Source of the DNA: Ahniella affigens
GTDB taxonomy: Bacteria > Pseudomonadota > Gammaproteobacteria > Xanthomonadales > Ahniellaceae
NCBI RefSeq assembly: GCF_003015185.1
Contig: NZ_CP027860.1
Location: 2,852,001-2,916,000, forward strand
Reading direction: 5' to 3'
Length of the DNA stretch: 64,000 nucleotides
Every line of letters begins with the position of its first letter. Position 1 is the stretch's first letter. The translations under genes and the position numbers were made by a program. The notes below the pieces were generated by a model. That model saw nothing but the letters and a program-made list of their open reading frames with translations, was not told the origin of the DNA and searched no databases. Below, in pieces: positions 40,134-59,650 of this stretch.

Positions 40134-40204
40134 GGTCAGAATCGTCACCGGCCGCAGTTTATGGGTTAGCAAAACCTAATGTGTTACGGCGTGTTTGATG
40201 AGCG

Positions 40205-40266
40205 GATCTGAATCAGTCCATCTTGGAAATTCAGACCCGTCGAGCCCCTGAACTTGTTCAGAGGCG
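40205..40266. repeat. Reduced copy of five-hairpin repeat (hairpins 1 and 5)
   Basis: Matches the ends of the full element found near 52.3 and 59.5 kb: ATCTGAATCAGTCCATCTTGG...TTCAGAC followed directly by CCCTGAACTTGTTCAGAGG. The three middle hairpins are missing. It lies two bases before the glnD stop, in the convergent intergenic region. Confidence 0.8.
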
Positions 40267-40268
40267 CC

Positions 40269-42875
40269 TCAGCGCCGATTGCGCGCAAACGGATTCAGTT
40301 CGTGGGCCAGGGTGCGTGACAGCGCGTCGCGTTGCTCCAGGCTCAGCGGTTTGCCGTCGAGCGTGGACAGCAAGAAGATATCTTCGACGCGTTCGCCAAA
40401 CGTGGCGATGCGGGCATCATGCACGGCCAAACCCACCGCCCGGAACACCTGAGCAATCTGCGCAAGCAAACCGGGCCGATCCGAACACACCAAGCCCATT
40501 TCCGTGCGGCCGGCCGCTTCATCGTCGCTGAAGTCGAGTTTCAGCGCCAATTGGAAGTGCTTTTGTTGCCGGGTCCAGGCGCGTCGCGCCGGCGTCAGAC
40601 TGAGCTCTGGTTTGCCGAGTTCATCGCTGAGCCGCGCCCCGAGGTCTTCGATTCGTTCTGGGTCGATCAGCGGCTTGTGCTCGGCGTCGAGCACCTGGAA
40701 CGTATCGAGCACATGCCCGAGCTTGGAGCTGACAATGCGCGCTTCGAGCACGGACAATTGCAAACGGTCCAGCACCGCAGTGATCGTCGCAAACACACCG
40801 TCACGGTCGGCTGAATAGACAAACACCTCAGTCGTGCCGTGCTCGGTCGGCGAGCGCACCGCAGTCAATGGCTCGGCGCGGCCAGCATGCTTCAGCACCG
40901 CAGCCGTCTGCCACGCAATCTGTGTGGGGCTGAACCGCAGAAATGACTCGGCCGGGTACTCCGCCCACAAAGCTTCGGCGGCATTCGCCTGGATGCCGGA
41001 TTGGGCCAGCAGTTCCAGCGCCATGCGCTGCACATCGCGAATACGCTCCGATTCATGAACCGGATGCTCCAACCCACGCCGCAACGCATAGCGCGTAGTT
41101 TGATACAGATCGCCGAGCAGCCGCTCCTTCCAGCCATTCCAGAGTTTTGGGTTGGTGCCCGAGATATCGGCCACGGTCAACAAGTACAAATAGTCCAGAC
41201 GTTCCCAATCACGAACCACACTCGCGAACCGATGCACCACTTGTGGATCGCCAATATCCTGCTTCTGCGCCGTCACCGACATGGTCAGATGTTCGCGCAC
41301 CAGCCAACTGATCAGATCGGTGTCGGTCTGACTGAGGCCCGCCTGTGCGCCAAACTGGCGCGCCTCGACCTCGCCAAGCTCCGAGTGATCACCACCCTTG
41401 CCCTTGGCAATGTCATGAAACAAGCCGGCCAGCAACAGCAACTCGGGCTTTCGGATGCGTTTTCTGACTTCATAGGCGAGCGGATACGTTTTCTGCGTCG
41501 ACTCGCGATTGAAGCGTGCCAGGTTATGCATGACAAACAAGGTGTGCTGATCGACCGTGTAGGCATGAAACATGTCGTATTGCATACGGCCGCTGACTTG
41601 ATCGAACGCCGGCACGAGGCGCCCGAGCAAGCCGATATCAGCAAGCGCTTCGACCACGTTCATCACCTCGCCCGGCTCGCGCAGCAGATTCGGCAAAGAG
41701 GTGCGCAGACTCGCAATCTGCTCGGCTGAGAGTTGCTGGCACAGGCTGCTCATTGGTCCTGCCAACGCGGCGGCCGGTCGCAGCTTCTCATTGGCTTGCG
41801 CGAGTAGCCTGAGGCATTGAATCAGCCGGTCCAGATTGGCCGCCAAGCTTTGCGGCTCGACGTGATCGAGACGGCCTTCGCGGACAAAGAATCCGTGTTC
41901 AAGCTCACGCTGGTCGGCCTGACTCGGCAAAACCCGCGCCTGCACTCGCTCCCAGACGCGCCGGCTCAAACGCTGCACAGCGGCAGACGCGCGGTAAAAC
42001 CCTTGCATGAAGCGCTCGACTGCGAGTTTGGGATTCGCATCCTGAAACCCGAACTGCGCGGCCAACTCACGCTGATGATCAAACAGCAGGCGTTCTTCGC
42101 GCCGTTTGAGCAACCGGTGCAAACCGAATCGCACCTGCCACAGCACGTCGCGCGCCTTCAGTAAGGCTTGCAGTTCTTCTTGGGTGCACAACCGCAAATC
42201 CGCCCAGGACTCGATTGCTTCCGTGCCAAATGCGCGCTTGATCACCCATTGCAATGCGTGCAAGTCGCGCAAGCCGCCTGGGCCTTCCTTGATGTTTGGT
42301 TCCAGATTGAATGCGGTGTCATTGAAACGGGCGTGCCGCTCGCGTTGCTCATCGAGCTTGGCCTGCATGAAACGCGGCGCCGGCCAAAGATCCGGGTGTT
42401 CCAGCGCGACGATCAACCGCTCGAAGGCATCACGGTCGCCGGTCAGATAGCGCGCCTCGAACAGTGCTGTGGCCGAGGTCAGATCGCGCTCGGCCTCTTC
42501 CAGACAGGCTCGGTGGCTGCGCACGATGTGACTGGCTTGCAAGCCTAAGTTCCAGAACTGCGATAGCAACGCTTCCAAAGCCCGATTGACCTCTGGGCGC
42601 ATCGGTTCTGGAACAATCAACAGTACGTCGATATCGGACTGCGGCAACAACTCGCGCCGACCGAAACCACCTGTCGCAACGAGCGCAACGTCATGAATCC
42701 CAGTGAACGTGTGCTCGAACGCCGCGATCACCACCCGGTCAACGGTGCGGGTACGCTCTTCGATCAACTCGGCGACTGGCCCGCCCAGAGCAAAGTGGGT
42801 TTCGGTCTCGAACACATTGCGCATCAACTGCTCGCGCAATTTGGAACTGGAGAAAGGAGCCTCAGTTTCAGTCAT
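40269..42875 (-). CDS. glnD: Bifunctional uridylyltransferase/uridylyl-removing enzyme
   Basis: 868-residue nitrogen sensor that uridylylates PII at low glutamine and removes UMP at high glutamine. The nucleotidyltransferase domain has GGFGRRELLPQSDIDVLLI with the catalytic Asp pair. The central helical region leads to an HD domain (LLLLAGLFHDIAKGKGGDHSELG). Two C-terminal ACT domains bind glutamine (VFVYSADRDGVFATITAVLDRL and MGLVCSDRPGLLAQIAQVFR). Length and domain order match the family. It is 16 bases downstream of map in the same orientation, the conserved map-glnD arrangement. Here rpsB is not next to map. Confidence 0.97.
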   Translation of the reverse strand: MTETEAPFSSSKLREQLMRNVFETETHFALGGPVAELIEERTRTVDRVVIAAFEHTFTGIHDVALVATGGFGRRELLPQSDIDVLLIVPEPMRPEVNRALEALLSQFWNLGLQASHIVRSHRACLEEAERDLTSATALFEARYLTGDRDAFERLIVALEHPDLWPAPRFMQAKLDEQRERHARFNDTAFNLEPNIKEGPGGLRDLHALQWVIKRAFGTEAIESWADLRLCTQEELQALLKARDVLWQVRFGLHRLLKRREERLLFDHQRELAAQFGFQDANPKLAVERFMQGFYRASAAVQRLSRRVWERVQARVLPSQADQRELEHGFFVREGRLDHVEPQSLAANLDRLIQCLRLLAQANEKLRPAAALAGPMSSLCQQLSAEQIASLRTSLPNLLREPGEVMNVVEALADIGLLGRLVPAFDQVSGRMQYDMFHAYTVDQHTLFVMHNLARFNRESTQKTYPLAYEVRKRIRKPELLLLAGLFHDIAKGKGGDHSELGEVEARQFGAQAGLSQTDTDLISWLVREHLTMSVTAQKQDIGDPQVVHRFASVVRDWERLDYLYLLTVADISGTNPKLWNGWKERLLGDLYQTTRYALRRGLEHPVHESERIRDVQRMALELLAQSGIQANAAEALWAEYPAESFLRFSPTQIAWQTAAVLKHAGRAEPLTAVRSPTEHGTTEVFVYSADRDGVFATITAVLDRLQLSVLEARIVSSKLGHVLDTFQVLDAEHKPLIDPERIEDLGARLSDELGKPELSLTPARRAWTRQQKHFQLALKLDFSDDEAAGRTEMGLVCSDRPGLLAQIAQVFRAVGLAVHDARIATFGERVEDIFLLSTLDGKPLSLEQRDALSRTLAHELNPFARNRR

Positions 42876-52294: not shown

Positions 52295-52312
52295 TCGCCG
52301 GGGCATTCGTTT

Positions 52313-52469
52313 AGGGAGGGTCTGAATAAGTCCATCCTGGACTTTCAAACCCGCACTGAGTCCGGCACGTGTCCGGACTCAGTGCCCCAAAATCAAGCAC
52401 TTGCGTGCTTGATTCTGGGCGGGCCATCCATGGCCCGAATCGCCTCTGAACTTGTTCAGAGGCTCCTTA
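52313..52469. repeat. Five-hairpin dispersed repeat, copy A
   Basis: Five consecutive perfect or near-perfect hairpins: 52320-52350 (GTCTGAA...TTCAAAC with an inner AGTCCA/TGGACT), 52353-52385 (13 bp, loop CACGTGT), 52391-52414 (AATCAAGCAC/GTGCTTGATT, loop TTGC), 52420-52437 (CGGGCCA/TGGCCCG) and 52442-52463 (GCCTCTGAAC/GTTCAGAGGC). The ends GGAG...TCTGAA and TTCAGA...CTCC can also pair with each other. It lies between the convergent BtuF-like and beta-helix genes. The nearly identical copy B is at 59496-59650. Confidence 0.9.
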
Positions 52470-55400
52470 GTCTTCGAATCCATCCGCCAGCAACACGTCT
52501 TGACTAGTCCCAGTCCCGCGAATCGTCAACGTCTGGCTATCACCATTGCTGGATTGAAAGGTCAGCACCTGCTCGAAGAACCCAACACCCACGGGCGCAA
52601 ACTCGATTCGTTGCACACACGCACCGTGCGCCGGAACCAAGACACCTGGCGATGCGTCGCAGGTGCCGCTGCCCGAGGTGGCAAACGGCGGCAACACTGG
52701 CGTCGTACGACTGATCGTACGCGCAACGGTGTCAGGATTACCTACCTCAATAGCTGAGGAGTACGCCGCATTGCCAATCAGCACCGTCCCGAGATCAACC
52801 ACACTGGGAAAAATACCAATTCCGCCACTGGTTCCAAAGCCCCGCAATACGGCGGGCACGTCAATCGGCGCGCCGCCCTGGTAGCCTGCACTTCCAGACA
52901 ACGTGGCAATAGCATCCACCGGACCCGTACCGAACGGCAAAAATGTCGCTTGCAGGCTGCAAGGGGTCGCCCCACTCACCGTAACGGGAAAAGCACCGCA
53001 ATTGCCGTTGCCGATGTGTGTGAATGGCGATAGCACGCCGACCAGATTGTCGATTCGCCACCAGGCCGGGCTGCCGCCGTTGACCAAATCCAGCGATACG
53101 GGAACAGTGTTACCCACACGCGCGAACACACGATTCGCCGTGGCGGCACTAAGTACTGGGGCCACCACATCTCCCTCAAGCGATGTAAAGGATGTCTGAC
53201 CATCTTGGGAGATCAGGCGCAGTGAGCCGCGATAGGACCCCGGCGCGTTCGACTCCAGATGAACACGGAGATCGCAAGATTCCCCCGCATCAAGACCGAT
53301 TCCGAAGCCACAAGTACTATTCTGTTCGAAGAAGGCGCCTTGTTGATCAAAGACGATGCTGGCGCCCAGTACTGCCGCTCCAGGTAGGGCGACATTCGCG
53401 ACGGCAAGCGTCTGAACGTTGCTGCGCTCACCCGTCATGACAGTCCCAAACTGCAATCTGAAGCTCGACACAGCGAGATCACCTTGAGGCTGCCCGCCGC
53501 CGAGTTCGTCGGCCCCCAAATCCACCAGTCCATCGCCTCCTGGACGGAAATCATCATCAATATCCAAGGGCATAGGCGGGTCTAGGTTGGTGGCGCCGAC
53601 ATGGTGTGCGGGCGAGTCACCGCGAAGATGCAACACATCCTTCAATTGAAACCTCGGATTCGCGTCCAGACTGTGCGTGCCACCCCCGGCAACGGCCAGC
53701 CAACTGGCCAGGGCCGGATAGTCCTGGTGGTTGTTGCCGGTACTGCGGCGAACCGCGACCCCACCGCTACCACCAGCATGGATCAGGTTGTAGTCATGGG
53801 TGCTGGAATGGCCGTCGACCAACCACAAAGCGACATGAGTCGTCGCCGCCTGCTCGTTAGTGTGCACATTCGCGATCACGTTATTTTCTAGAAGCGCCGC
53901 CGACGGCGCCACCACTTGCACGGCACTTGTCGGCACACCACCGCCGCCCGGCCCGCCCTCGACCAGGACACTATTCTGGCGGAATAGAACCTGACCGGTT
54001 CCTTCAATCCGAACGCCAGTCATGGCCAGATCGCCCGTGATCTGCGACGCATCTGGCCTTCTTCCTAGATAAACCGAGTTGTCATGAACGCGCAGCGAAC
54101 TCGCCGTTTTCAACGACATGCCTTGCAAACTGGCCAGACCGCCTTCTCGGGCCTGCAGCGTAAACACAGCATTGTGCGACACCTCATTGAGCCCCGTGGT
54201 CGCGTCAGACTCAACCGAAATGCCTTGCACCATCGGCGCCGCGACGCTGTAGCTATTGCTGAGGTCATACACGCGGTTCTTGATGACCAGCGCGCTACCG
54301 TTGGCTGGCGCCCGAACCCAGATCCCTTGTGTCGCGGGCAAGCCATTCGGCCCGCCATAGCTTGGGCCAGAAATGCGCGTGATCGTGTTCGACTGGATAT
54401 CGTTGTTCTGGCAATCGCTCTGAATCCCGACGACTCGCCCGCCCAACGGTGACGCGGACTCGCTGATCAGGGAGGCGAATTCACGGTCACCAATCCGAGC
54501 GTTGCGGATACGCAGCAGGGCGCCACCATTTTGGCTGGCGGTACAGAGCACGCCATGGAGCCGGAAATCGGTCAAGCCGCCAACACTTCGCACGCGCATG
54601 TCGCGAATATCGAGACCATTGATGAGCAATTCCGCCGGGCCACGCATGGCGATTGCGGTCACTTCTGTTGGCGATCCTGTGTTGGTCTCGACCAGCAGCG
54701 GACCGATCTCGTTGTTGTTCGCCGTAAACGCCCCGCTGGCGATGTTGATACCGACGAAGGCCGCGCTGTCGCCGATTCCCGATGCATTAGCGCCGGTGCG
54801 CTGCAAGCGCGTGATTTGGTTGAAGTGCGCTGACCCCACCTGGTCGGGCGGCAGGCGCAGAAAGATGCCAATGATCTTGGCATTACCGCCCGAAAACACA
54901 TTGTCCGAAGTATCCACATCGCGAGCGCCGAAGCGATTCCCCCCCACATCGATGGCGCCAGCATTGACAGCCGCTGTCGTGACATCGACGTGGATGCCGT
55001 GATGCGTCACCGGTGTGGTCAGCGTATCGAATTGCCGGACAACAGACTGATGAATCTGATTGCCACCAATCGTCATCGTGTGGCAGCCATTGCCCACATA
55101 GATGGCCGCTGTATTGGCGCCGGGCGCGAAGACGTCCACAAAGCGGTTCGAACCCACGGTGATTGAGGCATTACCAGCTTCTGCCGACGTTACCGAGCCG
55201 AGGCAGAAAAAGCCTTGGCGTAGCGCGCTGTTCGTCGTCGGCGCGCCAATCACGTTGTTGGTAGCGGTTACCGTGTCGATGCCTTGCCCGGTCGCGCCGC
55301 TGATAATGACTGCGCCGCCCGGCGTGCCCATCGGCACCGTCGCACGACTGTAAATGGTCAGCCCCGTAAGCGCCGCACCTTGAATCTCGCCACGCAAACG

Positions 55401-55829
55401 GATTGTGCTGGTCCCCGCAACGTTACTCGTATTCGAGTTGCTGATCTCCAGCGATCCGTTGTTGAGTTGGTTGCCATCAATCTGCACCTGATCCGCACCA
55501 TTCAGATCAATCAAAGGCAACCCGGCCCCTGGATCACCGACGATACGGCGAACGCCAATCGGCTGCACCACCACGCTGCCGTATTGCGCCGCGCCGACGC
55601 CACTGGCGTTCAGCACGGCTGAGTTCGTCTCGGTGGTGTCTGCCAGAATCTCGATTTGAATGTCACCTTGATGCGCCCCGTTGTTGACCGCATCAAACGC
55701 AGCCTTCAAGGTCGGATACAGCATCGGGTTTGGGCTGACCCGGACGTTCTGCGCAAGCACCGGCCCCACGTTGACAAAAAGTAAGCCGAAAATCAGGACT
55801 GACGACAAGCGTTGAATCATGAGGACCAT
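52467..55829 (-). CDS. Secreted beta-helix / choice-of-anchor-D protein (paralogue 1)
   Basis: 1120 residues. A signal peptide ending VGPVLA is followed by QNVRVSPNPMLYPTLKAAFDAVN and a long right-handed beta-helix with IDLNGADQVQIDGNQL and TSTIRLRGEIQGAAL. Three Ig-like choice-of-anchor-D/HYDIN-type domains follow from about residue 800 (for example FGTVMTGERSNVQTLAVANV, DLGTVLIGNAAYSSAIEVGNP). The C-terminus is VLLADGFED. It is a clear paralogue of the neighbouring gene, with the same architecture and length and about half of positions identical by eye in the N- and C-terminal thirds. Likely extracellular or surface-attached; function unknown. Confidence 0.88.
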   Translation of the reverse strand: MVLMIQRLSSVLIFGLLFVNVGPVLAQNVRVSPNPMLYPTLKAAFDAVNNGAHQGDIQIEILADTTETNSAVLNASGVGAAQYGSVVVQPIGVRRIVGDPGAGLPLIDLNGADQVQIDGNQLNNGSLEISNSNTSNVAGTSTIRLRGEIQGAALTGLTIYSRATVPMGTPGGAVIISGATGQGIDTVTATNNVIGAPTTNSALRQGFFCLGSVTSAEAGNASITVGSNRFVDVFAPGANTAAIYVGNGCHTMTIGGNQIHQSVVRQFDTLTTPVTHHGIHVDVTTAAVNAGAIDVGGNRFGARDVDTSDNVFSGGNAKIIGIFLRLPPDQVGSAHFNQITRLQRTGANASGIGDSAAFVGINIASGAFTANNNEIGPLLVETNTGSPTEVTAIAMRGPAELLINGLDIRDMRVRSVGGLTDFRLHGVLCTASQNGGALLRIRNARIGDREFASLISESASPLGGRVVGIQSDCQNNDIQSNTITRISGPSYGGPNGLPATQGIWVRAPANGSALVIKNRVYDLSNSYSVAAPMVQGISVESDATTGLNEVSHNAVFTLQAREGGLASLQGMSLKTASSLRVHDNSVYLGRRPDASQITGDLAMTGVRIEGTGQVLFRQNSVLVEGGPGGGGVPTSAVQVVAPSAALLENNVIANVHTNEQAATTHVALWLVDGHSSTHDYNLIHAGGSGGVAVRRSTGNNHQDYPALASWLAVAGGGTHSLDANPRFQLKDVLHLRGDSPAHHVGATNLDPPMPLDIDDDFRPGGDGLVDLGADELGGGQPQGDLAVSSFRLQFGTVMTGERSNVQTLAVANVALPGAAVLGASIVFDQQGAFFEQNSTCGFGIGLDAGESCDLRVHLESNAPGSYRGSLRLISQDGQTSFTSLEGDVVAPVLSAATANRVFARVGNTVPVSLDLVNGGSPAWWRIDNLVGVLSPFTHIGNGNCGAFPVTVSGATPCSLQATFLPFGTGPVDAIATLSGSAGYQGGAPIDVPAVLRGFGTSGGIGIFPSVVDLGTVLIGNAAYSSAIEVGNPDTVARTISRTTPVLPPFATSGSGTCDASPGVLVPAHGACVQRIEFAPVGVGFFEQVLTFQSSNGDSQTLTIRGTGTSQDVLLADGFED

Positions 55830-56053
55830 TGGGACAGTAAGGTGAGGATGCGCCCCTGGCGTCTCCGCGGGACTTGCGCGCGAAGTTTGCCCACTTTCTC
55901 ATAAGCACGCCATTCGCTTTGACATTCGTCGCCAAATTGGCTCTGATTGTGTCCACGAGTATCCCTGTGACGTGAGACAGATCAGGCGCAATACATCACG
56001 TAGGCGTCGCTACCACGGCAACCTGACCCACGAAGCCGCAGGCGTCGGCCGTG

Positions 56054-59000
56054 TTACTCAAACCCATCCGCATGCAGCACGCCAGCTGGCACGCCCGTAC
56101 CGCGCAGGAGCACAGTCATGGCGTCGCCATCACTGGACTGCACCGTCAGCGTCTGTTCGAACACACCCGGCCCAATGGGCGAGAAGCCGACACGCTGCAC
56201 GCACGATGCATGCGCCGCGACCGACACGCCCGGCGATGCCGCGCACGTCGTGCCCGCAGCCTCGAAAAATGGAGCCTGAACTGGCGTCACTACAGCGACA
56301 CTGCGGGCCGCCAAATCGCCGTTGCCGAGGTAAGCCGTCAGGGGTTCGGCGCTTGCGCCGACCTCGACATTACCAAAGTTCAGCACCGTGGGAAGTGCGC
56401 CCAAGGTGTTGGTTGTACCGACCGCTTGAATGATGACCGGCGACACCCACGGCAGACCACCATAAAATCCAGCCCGTCCGCGAACAAACGCAAACGAATT
56501 CGCAGAACCCGCCGTATTCGGCGCAAACTGAAGGTCCAAAGTGCATCCCTGCATCGGACCAAGTTGCACCGGTAGCGGCCCGCAAGTTCCGTTACCGATC
56601 AGGCTGAAAGGGGTAGATAGGTTGTTGATTGCGTCGATCTGCCAATAGTCAGGCACGCCAAGATTCTCGAGTTGCAAACTCGCAGCGACGGTGCTGAAGA
56701 CGCGCGCAAACAGGGGGCTTTCTATCCCTGCGCGCAGCGTCGGGGCCACAACTTCGCCAGTCAACGAAACGAAAGCAGTCTCGCCTCGGCTCGAAGAGAT
56801 GCGCAGACTGCTTTGCACCGGCGCAGCCGTCTCCGATTGCATCACCAGTCCAATCACGCAGCTGTCGCCCGGCGCCAGACTTGAGCCTGGCGAACACGTC
56901 GTCCCATCGCCAAACGTGATCCCGTTTTGGAAGTCGATGTCGTACTGAACCGTGATCCCCTCTGCTATGGCCGGTGCATCATTTGCCAAGACGAGAGACT
57001 GTACCGGGCTATATTCACCGGTTATGACTGTCCCGAAGTCGATCGAAGAACGCGATACCGAAAGTGAACCTGGCTCAACCCCGGGCACGTGCTCATCGGC
57101 ACCGAGATCCGCCAGCCCGTCGGTTCCCGGGCGCGGATCATTGTCGATATCGAACGCATCAAGTCCGCTCAATCCGATCGGCGTCAGGGCAATGTTTCGG
57201 GCGACCGAATCAGCCCGCAGATGCAACACGTTGTTCAGCATGAATCCCGGCTCGTCGCTGAGATTGTGCGTCCCCCCGCCCACAAGCGATTGCCAACTGG
57301 CGAGATCGTTAAAGTCCTGATTGACCGTGCCGTTGCTGCTTCGAATCAGAACGCCACCCACCCCGCTAGCATCGTAGAGATTGTAGTCATGCTGGTTGGA
57401 GTAACCATCGACGAACCAGACTGCCACATGCTGGCCGGTGCCAGTGTCGTTGCTGCGCTGATTGGCGATCACGTTGTTCTGCATCAATGCCTGGGTCGGT
57501 GCCAAAAGCTCGATCGCCCGCGTCGCCTCAGATCCGGTAACGCCTTCCCCAGTGAGCAGCACGCTGTTATGCAGAACAGACGCCGTGCCTGTTCCTTCCA
57601 GCCGAATACCGCCCATCGCCATACCGGCTCGAATCGGTGACCCATCCCAGTTCTCGCCGAGCTTGACGGAATTGCCATAGACGAGGGTTGAACTACTGGA
57701 TTTGATGCGTAAGCCTTGCAGCATCGCGTTCGGCGCATCGGCCTGGAGCCCGTAGATCGCGTTCAAGGAGACGCTGTTGATGCTCGCAGTCGCCGAATTG
57801 TCGACCATGATTCCTTGCACGGTTGCCGAGCCGGAAAGGCTGCTCGAACGCAAGTGCGACACTTGGTTGTTGCGAATATTCGCGAGACCATTTGCTTGGT
57901 TGCGCACATAAAGGCCGAGCACAGCAGAAACCGCACCATCCCCGGCCTCGCCCGGAGCAACCAGCCCGGCAATCGTGCTGTTGGTGACGAGTGATCGCGC
58001 ACATTCGCTATAGACACCGGAAACCTGTCCGCCCAGCGGCGAAGTGGATTCGACCACCAGCGAATCCGACAACAAGCCGCCCACCCGCGCGAACGACAGG
58101 TTCAGTTCGGACAGGGCACCAGGCGCCTGCACGCACTGAATCCCATAAAGGCGAAGCTGCGTTTGGCCACTTGGGGATCTCGACTTGATGTCATACAGCC
58201 AGGGATTGAATGCCAAGAGATCGCCAGAGCCATAGAGCCCCATTCCCACAACATCCGCAGCGCCCGCCCAATTGGTCTCGAATACAAAGGGGCCAAACCG
58301 GTCGTTAAAGCTGCCATGGTATGAACGCGTCACCAGCAAGCCCGCGAACGGCGCCGCCACACCGACACCACTCGAGTCCGCGTTCAGGCGCTGGATCCGG
58401 CCAACCAGATTGTCCCGAGACTCGGTGAGCTGGTCGGGGCCCGAGTCGATGAAGATCCCAACGAATTTTCCATTGCCGTCGACCAAACGCATATCCGCAC
58501 TGCTATTTGGCCCACTGCCGCCGATCGTGTTACGAAGCAGGTAGATGGGATTCGGCGCTGCAGCGACGCTAGTTGCATGAATCCGGATCCCGAAATGTGT
58601 CGGCGCGATACGTGGCGACCCAAAATGCTGGATTCGGCTCTGATAGATCTCGTTGTCTGTAATGGCAAGCCCATGACAACCATTGCCAATCTGAATGGCG
58701 GCACTGTCGGCGTCGCTCGAGAAGATGTTGGCGAACCGATTTCGACTGACGGTGAGCGCGGCATTGCCCGCGGCGACTGAATCCGTCGCGCCGGTGCAAA
58801 AGAATCCTTGCGTCAAGGTTGAATCATTTTGCGAACTGCCAATAAGGTTGCCGTCGATCAGAACTGAATCGACCCCTTCACCCAAGGTGTCGCTAATCAC
58901 CAACGCCCCACCAGCGGCGCCCATGGGGACGGTGGCGTCGCTGAAAATTCGAAGATTGCTGAGATTTGCAGTCCGAATGTCGCCTCGCAGCCGTATGGTG

Positions 59001-59410
59001 CTGGTGCCCACGGTGTGGGACTGACTGAAGTTGCTGAAAGTCAGGGTGTTGCCATCGTGGTTGATGCCATTGATCGTCACGTTGTCGGCACCGTTGAGAT
59101 CAACCATGGGTTGCCCATTGCCTGGGTTGCCAGCAACTGTTCTGGCGCCGACCGGCACCATCGTGACGGATGCATACGACGCTGCTCCGACACCACTCGC
59201 ATTCAGGACGGCAGTCGTGTTCTCGACCGTATCTTCCAGAATTTCAATCTGAACGGTGCCGGCATGTGCCCCCGCATTGATTGCATCAAACGCTGCTTTC
59301 AACGTCGGATAAGACGATGGGTTTGGGCTGACTTGGACATTTTGCGCAGTTGCCGATCCGGCAACAATCAGGGCCGACAATAGTGCGCACTTCAGAACTG
59401 GAGACCGCAT
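56054..59410 (-). CDS. Secreted beta-helix / choice-of-anchor-D protein (paralogue 2)
   Basis: 1118 residues; AAAGGA ribosome-binding site before the ATG and signal peptide ending VAGSATA. The mature start QNVQVSPNPSSYPTLKAAFDAIN matches paralogue 1, as do VDLNGADNVTINGINH and the three HYDIN-type domains (FGTVITGEYSPVQSLVLAND, NFGNVEVGASAEPLTAYLGN). The C-terminus is VLHADGFE. The 643-base-long upstream region carries copies D and B of the hairpin repeat, copy D lying about 30 bases before the start codon, within the probable leader. The two paralogues are 224 bases apart and may be separate transcripts. Confidence 0.88.
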   Translation of the reverse strand: MRSPVLKCALLSALIVAGSATAQNVQVSPNPSSYPTLKAAFDAINAGAHAGTVQIEILEDTVENTTAVLNASGVGAASYASVTMVPVGARTVAGNPGNGQPMVDLNGADNVTINGINHDGNTLTFSNFSQSHTVGTSTIRLRGDIRTANLSNLRIFSDATVPMGAAGGALVISDTLGEGVDSVLIDGNLIGSSQNDSTLTQGFFCTGATDSVAAGNAALTVSRNRFANIFSSDADSAAIQIGNGCHGLAITDNEIYQSRIQHFGSPRIAPTHFGIRIHATSVAAAPNPIYLLRNTIGGSGPNSSADMRLVDGNGKFVGIFIDSGPDQLTESRDNLVGRIQRLNADSSGVGVAAPFAGLLVTRSYHGSFNDRFGPFVFETNWAGAADVVGMGLYGSGDLLAFNPWLYDIKSRSPSGQTQLRLYGIQCVQAPGALSELNLSFARVGGLLSDSLVVESTSPLGGQVSGVYSECARSLVTNSTIAGLVAPGEAGDGAVSAVLGLYVRNQANGLANIRNNQVSHLRSSSLSGSATVQGIMVDNSATASINSVSLNAIYGLQADAPNAMLQGLRIKSSSSTLVYGNSVKLGENWDGSPIRAGMAMGGIRLEGTGTASVLHNSVLLTGEGVTGSEATRAIELLAPTQALMQNNVIANQRSNDTGTGQHVAVWFVDGYSNQHDYNLYDASGVGGVLIRSSNGTVNQDFNDLASWQSLVGGGTHNLSDEPGFMLNNVLHLRADSVARNIALTPIGLSGLDAFDIDNDPRPGTDGLADLGADEHVPGVEPGSLSVSRSSIDFGTVITGEYSPVQSLVLANDAPAIAEGITVQYDIDFQNGITFGDGTTCSPGSSLAPGDSCVIGLVMQSETAAPVQSSLRISSSRGETAFVSLTGEVVAPTLRAGIESPLFARVFSTVAASLQLENLGVPDYWQIDAINNLSTPFSLIGNGTCGPLPVQLGPMQGCTLDLQFAPNTAGSANSFAFVRGRAGFYGGLPWVSPVIIQAVGTTNTLGALPTVLNFGNVEVGASAEPLTAYLGNGDLAARSVAVVTPVQAPFFEAAGTTCAASPGVSVAAHASCVQRVGFSPIGPGVFEQTLTVQSSDGDAMTVLLRGTGVPAGVLHADGFE

Positions 59411-59438
59411 GCAAATCCTTTGTGACCGATTAAAAGCA

Positions 59439-59467
59439 TCTGAATGAGTCCGTCGTGAACGTTCAGA
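59439..59467. repeat. Solo first hairpin of five-hairpin repeat (copy D)
   Basis: TCTGAA...TTCAGA arms enclose GTCCGTCGTGAAC, matching hairpin 1 of copies A and B with diverged loop. It lies in the upstream leader of the minus-strand beta-helix gene and could influence its expression (inference). Confidence 0.65.
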
Positions 59468-59495
59468 CTTTGCTTACGTGACGACTGAACGCGCT

Positions 59496-59650
59496 AAGGA
59501 GGGTCTGAATAAGTCCATCCTGGACTTTCAGACCCACAATGAGTCCGGCACATGTCCGGACTCATTGCTCCAGAATCAAGCACTAGCGTGCTCGATTCTG
59601 GGCGGGCCATCCATGGCCCGCATCGCCTCTGAACTTGTTCAGAGGCTCTC
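59496..59650. repeat. Five-hairpin dispersed repeat, copy B
   Basis: Same order and orientation as copy A, about 90% identical by eye: GTCTGAA...TTCAGAC, CAATGAGTCCGG/CCGGACTCATTG, GAATCAAGCAC/GTGCTCGATTC, GCGGGCCA/TGGCCCGC, GCCTCTGAAC/GTTCAGAGGC. In hairpin 2 a C-G pair of copy A is replaced by A-T, a compensatory change that keeps the stem. Hairpin 3 gained one A·C mismatch. Confidence 0.9.

Follow-up and report, generated by a model that had tools for sequence, protein, structure and literature searches.

A five-hairpin transposable element of Ahniella affigens with IS5-type ends, probably carrying a putative CsrA/RsmA-binding RNA

We analysed a window of 64,000 nucleotides from the genome of Ahniella affigens (contig NZ_CP027860.1, positions 2,852,001 to 2,916,000 of the forward strand; positions given below without a contig refer to this window), which contains two copies of a 152-bp repeat built from five consecutive hairpins. 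The repeat appears to be a miniature inverted-repeat transposable element (MITE) mobilised by an insertion sequence (IS) of the IS5 family, and its interior retains one RNA-like fold across distant hosts. To our knowledge, MITEs are generally regarded as IS remnants whose interiors have no conserved function. Taking the evidence together, we favour, with some reservation, the view that this is an IS5-mobilised five-hairpin RNA element, most likely a putative binder of the regulator CsrA/RsmA that acts as a decoy or as a portable site in untranslated regions (UTRs).

A first-pass annotation of the window had reported two copies with the same ordered series of five palindromes. Both copies, A and B, are present with the inverted repeats as described, comprising five perfect or near-perfect palindromes each in identical order (Table 1). 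Its length of 155–157 bp, however, included flanking bases, and the element measures exactly 152 bp in both copies. Matches to the hairpin 1 and hairpin 5 patterns have an expected number of zero in shuffled sequence. Because of this and of scores of near-identical copies elsewhere in the genome, a chance origin of the window repeats is excluded.

Our survey of the 6.12-Mb genome comprised 123 site clusters, and all counts are lower bounds, as low-identity copies are under-counted. The sequence search recovered at least 40 near-full-length copies at 93–99% identity, plus tandem arrays, together with more than 100 hairpin 5 sites and at least 162 sites for hairpin 1 (three mismatches or fewer). 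Among the loci retrieved, at least 77 copies measure 151–153 bp, including 71 of exactly 152 bp, so the repeat is not simply a region duplicated once. The size classes are modular: 68 bp (hairpins 1 and 5), about 103 bp (hairpins 1, 2, and 5), 151–153 bp (all five hairpins), and 174–176 bp (an additional hairpin within hairpin 2). The reduced form with hairpins 1 and 5 only, already noted in the window, is one of at least 12 copies of the 68-bp class. The 68- and 103-bp classes are older than the 152-bp class, given that their shared ends diverge from the consensus by 12% and 18%, respectively, compared with 3%. Tandem arrays consist of two to four units of 127 bp (hairpins 1–4) closed by a single hairpin 5. 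Local expansion is suggested by the units of an array, which are closer to one another than to those in other arrays.

Alignment of the copies with their flanks revealed fixed ends, GGAGGGTCTGAA...TTCAGAGGCTCC, beside 4-bp direct repeats. A perfect 4-bp duplication was found at 55 of 135 candidate copies, compared with 11 when the flanks were re-paired, and the commonest targets are CTAG, TTAG, and CTAA. In the same genome, an IS of about 1.22 kb is present in 13 essentially identical copies; it has GGAGGGTCTGAACAAGTC at both ends and makes duplications equal to those of the MITE in length and sequence (CTAG/TTAG/CTAA). Its 342-residue transposase belongs to the IS5 family, with 325.6 bits against the IS5 model NF033581 (transpos_IS5_4; cut-off, 140 bits), and carries PF01609 and PF05598. 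When the MITE ends, GGAGGGTCTGAA(Y)AAGTC and GGAGCCTCTGAACAAGTT, are compared with the terminal inverted repeats of this resident full-length IS, the left end shares 17 of 18 bases in its consensus form (18 of 18 in copies with C), and 15 of 18 agree at the right end. Hairpins 1 and 5 are thus in part the transposon ends themselves. Empty sites were found at five loci of another genus in the order, where the joined flanks are contiguous in congeners; the best one aligns over 341 of 341 positions at 97% identity without a net gap in G241, the element being present in G258.

A carrier from a sister genus (G002) contains this IS too, with identical ends and CTAG at either flank; at G002:C22:62291-64653 it lies about 1.2 kb from the only MITE copy detected there. 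Among ten carriers searched, close relatives of the Ahniella transposase occur only in G002 (94%) and G009 (52%), with fragments in one more; the mobiliser partners in other hosts are therefore inferred from element ends and target duplications. Since IS5-type ends and 4-bp duplications are common to the element and the 13-copy IS, we conclude that it is an IS5-mobilised MITE, with mobilisation in trans deduced from sequence. The earlier description of a structured, modular, MITE-like mobile element is thus borne out by the target duplications, the IS5 partner, and the size classes.

As for the interior, folding predicted exactly five minus-strand hairpins in 144 of 157 diverse elements from 79 genomes. 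We quantified covariation over 81 aligned copies and 35 base pairs (inner hairpin 1 and hairpins 2, 3, and 4), excluding the transposon ends. Paired cells amount to 94.2%, compared with 68.3% in shuffled alignments, and double-change cells to 622 versus 161, unlike the random stem mutations that would have spoken for an unstructured repeat. Covariation is 0.648 versus 0.182 after shuffling and at most 0.122 when the partner column is slid by 1–3 positions. The alignment was fitted to a model of the same structure, which favours these values, but hairpin lengths are nearly constant and the slid controls collapse. Covariation, noted at a single pair by the first-pass annotation, is massive across genera and classes. 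In distant hosts, the stem sequences of hairpins 2 and 3 are wholly replaced, yet pairing is still perfect. Within the Ahniella genome, 70 copies contain 55 compensatory double changes versus 17.5 expected under independence, mostly at the base of hairpin 2. The coupled C-G to A-T change between copies A and B is real and forms part of an allele set at this place (pair 42-68: 43 C-G, 19 A-T, and 3 T-A). Variation at paired positions is half of that at unpaired positions. In this MITE, the interior keeps its structure although the sequence turns over, a pattern that implies selection for an RNA carried by the transposon.

The two strands are not equivalent. When 118 diverse elements are folded as RNA, 98 have the more stable fold on the minus strand and 15 on the plus strand (52 and 11, respectively, among Ahniella copies), and G-U pairs are more frequent on the minus strand (215 versus 121 in diverse copies; 72 versus 32 in Ahniella copies), although neither count is independent of ancestry. 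The minus-strand loop of hairpin 3 is of the GNRA type (C-GCAA-G or C-GUAA-G) in 43 of 78 genomes. On the plus strand of the diverse elements examined, no CANGGANG or GNRA motifs were found at the positions of hairpins 3, 4, and 1. The larger number of G-U pairs, the more stable fold, and the GNRA and CsrA/RsmA-like apical loops support an RNA rather than a DNA structure, read from the minus strand, opposite to the listing of the window. Rfam contained no family that the element matched at the gathering score (the best weak hit had E 0.45), which rules out a known Rfam RNA, and the earlier suggestion of an unnamed non-coding RNA family remains plausible. The element sequences were not found in the open-access literature, nor was such an element described there; subscription papers and ISfinder lay outside this search.

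Members of the same family, G009 and G008 among them (about 75% identity), carry diverged copies that retain all five hairpins. An exact 24-base motif of hairpin 3 led to copies in Lysobacter chinensis, Dyella choica, Rehaibacterium terrae, a Thermomonas metagenome-assembled genome (MAG), and others, whereas a match in Ruminococcus was dropped because the other four hairpins were absent around the lone one. Ends are host-specific (GGAAGGTCTGGACAAG, GGCAACACTGAACAAG, CAGGGTGCTGAATAAG); the length is mostly 141–154 bp, and 4-bp YTAR-like duplications recur despite the differing ends. A covariance model built from 16 sequences detected the element in 99 of 398 genomes of the order (39 of 98 genera); in the class sample, 43 of 274 genomes, from 35 of 222 genera, contain it. 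The model's E-values are rough, and the distribution rests on direct inspection of copies. A phylum-wide draw located the element in another class of Pseudomonadota as well, mostly in one family (f208). Two copies inspected from that class keep the architecture, with flanks TTAG/TTAA or TTAA/TTAA. Plasmid collections gave no match to three query elements and phage collections none to one. The MAG JAUIED01 contains near-identical 141-bp copies (L192, L193, L197, and L200) with CAGGGTGCTGAA ends, which suggests recent activity by a different mobiliser.

The apical loops led us to the putative ligand. The minus-strand apex of hairpin 4 is C-ANGGAN-G (CANGGANG) in 70 of 78 genomes, with the N positions varying freely, and its GGA is unpaired in the predicted ensemble (mean 0.9999 over 57 elements). 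The ANGGAN hexaloop is the RsmA/CsrA recognition motif seen in the RsmZ hairpin 2 complex (PMC3791407). The loop of hairpin 1 contains GGA in 74 of 78 genomes and CAGGANG in 45 of 78, and CsrB presents CAGGA(U/A/C)G repeats in hairpin loops (PMC7652899). Eight genomes have CACAGGGATGTG at hairpin 4, including the core ACARGGAUGU of the CsrA consensus RUACARGGAUGU from systematic evolution of ligands by exponential enrichment (SELEX), in which loops are mostly six bases long (PMC7652899). Each unit thus offers two unpaired ANGGA/GGA loops on the minus strand, in the manner of CsrB/RsmZ-type decoys, and binding of CsrA/RsmA by the minus-strand RNA is inferred as a putative function. The tandem arrays at six loci (Table 1) multiply these GGA loops.

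In the mechanism that we propose, the transposase of full-length ISs with the same ends would act on the hairpin 1 and 5 ends and insert the element at YTAR sites, often stop codons. The cargo would be a conserved five-hairpin RNA from the minus strand instead of degenerate IS sequence. Read-through from neighbouring genes would transcribe it, and the GGA loops of hairpins 4 and 1 may bind CsrA/RsmA. The RNA could then act as a decoy dispersed in many copies or provide UTRs with a portable CsrA site, and the beneficiary of the binding could be either the host or the element, the latter for instance through relief of repression. More tentatively, and with slightly less than even confidence, we envisage a transposable superfamily of putative CsrA/RsmA-binding RNAs, in which an ancient five-hairpin cargo travels on MITEs with different IS5-like ends in each host. 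It would have spread across Gammaproteobacteria and into one or more further classes, bringing tens to hundreds of CsrA sites to a genome, where it would work as a mobile sponge or supply portable control sites in UTRs. If CsrA/RsmA is indeed bound, transposition can seed or titrate the sites of a global regulator genome-wide. The elements would then be candidate RsmA antagonists for Lysobacterales, where RsmU was reported as the first RsmA-sequestering RNA in Xanthomonas, with none in two other Xanthomonas species (PMC7694677).

Several observations weigh against CsrA/RsmA binding by a minus-strand RNA. CsrA SELEX hairpins are mostly short-stemmed, and binding may be weaker when the stem is very stable (PMC7652899); the stems of the element are long, unlike most of those hairpins. 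The hairpin 4 motif is absent from some copies, e.g., L356. The linkers between hairpins comprise only a few bases, leaving little space for an internal promoter, and genome-wide the element shows no preferred orientation towards its flanking genes. Much of the G-U bias is due to a single recurrent site in hairpin 3 (A-C on the plus strand, G-U on the minus strand). CsrA is encoded by 41 of the 43 carriers in the class sample, the other two having one weak match each, but this co-occurrence says little because 234 of the 274 class genomes have CsrA anyway.

The genomic context was assessed for 115 copies of ≤200 bp, with genes called by a home-made hexamer model. The flanking genes are both on the plus strand in 30 cases, both on the minus strand in 26, convergent in 30, and divergent in 12, and 17 copies overlap a gene. 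Within 10 bp of an element we counted 28 gene ends, in both orientations, versus one gene start. YTAR includes TAA and TAG, and at copy A the duplicated TTAG provides the stop codon of the neighbouring gene. The position at gene ends can therefore be explained by the stop codons in YTAR target sites, and no function is needed. All window copies lie in sense with an adjacent minus-strand gene; we did not use this as support for transcription, there being no genome-wide bias. The genes at 52467-55829 and 56054-59410 are adjacent, same-strand, and clearly paralogous, encoding large secreted proteins of about 1120 residues, with MITE copies on both sides of the pair.

Other explanations deserve consideration. 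The fold might act as single-stranded or cruciform DNA that aids transposition or serves as a recognition site for a host DNA factor, without any RNA role. In favour of this, DNA can form stable hairpins with GNA/GNNA loops, every copy is mobile DNA with the transposase ends on hairpins 1 and 5, and the unbiased orientation of insertions towards genes would be expected. IS5 transposases, however, act on double-stranded ends, the wobble pairs are strand-biased, and the free N positions around an invariant GGA, on one strand only, fit a known RNA-protein consensus; we regard a DNA role as unlikely. The location beside stop codons could also point to a generic 3'-end stabiliser of mRNA, or a terminator or insulator, beneficial to the host after insertion, as known for repetitive extragenic palindromes (REPs) and bacterial interspersed mosaic elements. 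Its folds are stable in both orientations, and the excess of gene ends over gene starts agrees with it, but the latter follows from the target sites already, no U-run follows hairpin 5 in the Ahniella copies, and invariant one-strand GGA loops would be superfluous for such a role, which makes it improbable.

Maintenance of the palindromes by mutation bias, where template switching during replication perfects quasi-palindromes and selection is unnecessary, would account for the excess of doubles over singles at the hairpin 2 base of the Ahniella copies (22 doubles at pair 42-68, few intermediates). It leaves the constant length, number, and order of hairpins across genera and classes unexplained, as well as loops that are conserved while stems are replaced and stems half as variable as unpaired positions, and we consider it quite improbable. 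A relation to REP/REPIN sequences mobilised by a REP-associated tyrosine transposase (RAYT), raised by the first-pass annotation, is hardly credible. The search for transposases that it recommended did find a RAYT-type Y1 transposase (L032) and an IS200-like locus (L031), besides the IS5-family DDE partner, but the RAYT and IS200-like loci are not flanked by any of these hairpins, and the 4-bp target duplications and IS5-type ends refute such an origin. The RAYT-like gene (G000:C1:982769-983104) adjoins a tandem array of about 115-bp repeats unrelated to the element, probably its own REP array. About 19 further loci (L034, L037–L051, and others) encode long proteins (~320–350 residues) with partial similarity to Y1 transposases and constitute a separate multicopy mobile family.

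Table 1. Positions of the element copies, their hairpins, and related features.
Feature	Position	Strand	Remarks
Copy A, 152-bp element	52315..52466	- (proposed RNA strand)	Equals G000:C1:2904315-2904466; plus-strand ends GGAGGGTCTGAA ... TTCAGAGGCTCC
Copy A, left target duplication TTAG, 4 bp	52311..52314	.	
Copy A, right target duplication TTAG, 4 bp	52467..52470	.	Minus strand CTAA; includes TAA stop of gene 52467-55829
Copy A, hairpin 1	52319..52351	-	Bears left IS-type end; minus-strand apex CAGGAUG
Copy A, hairpin 2	52353..52385	-	Location of the C-G / A-T compensatory change
Copy A, hairpin 3	52387..52418	-	Minus-strand apex C-GCAA-G, GNRA
Copy A, hairpin 4	52420..52437	-	Minus-strand apex C-AUGGAU-G, CsrA/RsmA-type hexaloop by motif
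Copy A, hairpin 5	52442..52463	-	Bears right IS-type end
Copy B, 152-bp element	59498..59649	-	Flanks CTAA 59494-59497 and CAAA 59650-59653
Copy B, hairpin 1	59502..59534	-	
Copy B, hairpin 2	59536..59568	-	
Copy B, hairpin 3	59570..59601	-	
Copy B, hairpin 4	59603..59620	-	
Copy B, hairpin 5	59625..59646	-	
68-bp short form, hairpins 1 and 5 only	40201..40268	-	Older size class; abuts stop codon of gene 40269-42875 (-)
Possible decayed hairpin 1 remnant beside copy B	59439..59467	.	By appearance
Tandem arrays of 127-bp units	G000:C1:213732, 1106044, 1228234, 2430008, 3008590, 5721025		Most with matching target duplications

Dispersed, modular, structured small repeats are also known from Streptococcus pneumoniae as BOX elements. 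By description, these resemble our element, but their lineage, sequence, and modules differ (PMC3049150). REP/REPIN sequences with RAYT are likewise high-copy intergenic palindromes, with a different class of transposase (PMC3116915, PMC2817692); REPs are palindromes of 20–40 bp (PMC3733652) without the five-hairpin order. The QMITEs of Coxiella burnetii are gammaproteobacterial MITEs with stable transcript folds and have been tied to small RNA evolution (PMC5896051, PMC10969869), although they are set apart, by description, by duplications of 7–9 bp and ends of 23–29 bp. Closest in mobility are MITEPgRS and BrickBuilt of Porphyromonas gingivalis, which are short and non-coding, with ends matching resident IS5-family ISs; BrickBuilt also has internal tandem repeats, comparable to the 127-bp arrays, whereas the parts of that report available to us describe no multi-hairpin interior with compensatory changes across genera (PMC4596501). 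On the RNA side, CsrB/CsrC and RsmX/Y/Z are likewise series of hairpins with GGA in their loops, and the apex of hairpin 1 equals the CsrB repeat CAGGA(U/A/C)G as hairpin 4 does the ANGGAN hexaloop (PMC7652899, PMC3791407). Those RNAs are single-locus and promoter-driven, whereas our element is transposable, with scores of copies and two GGA loops per unit, and by Rfam match it has no homology to the CsrB, CsrC, or RsmX/Y/Z families. RsmU (sRX061) of Xanthomonas campestris, an RsmA-sequestering RNA from a 3' UTR, is another Lysobacterales RNA with GGA motifs, but it is a single locus confined to Xanthomonas, whereas the element described here is a dispersed repeat (PMC7694677).

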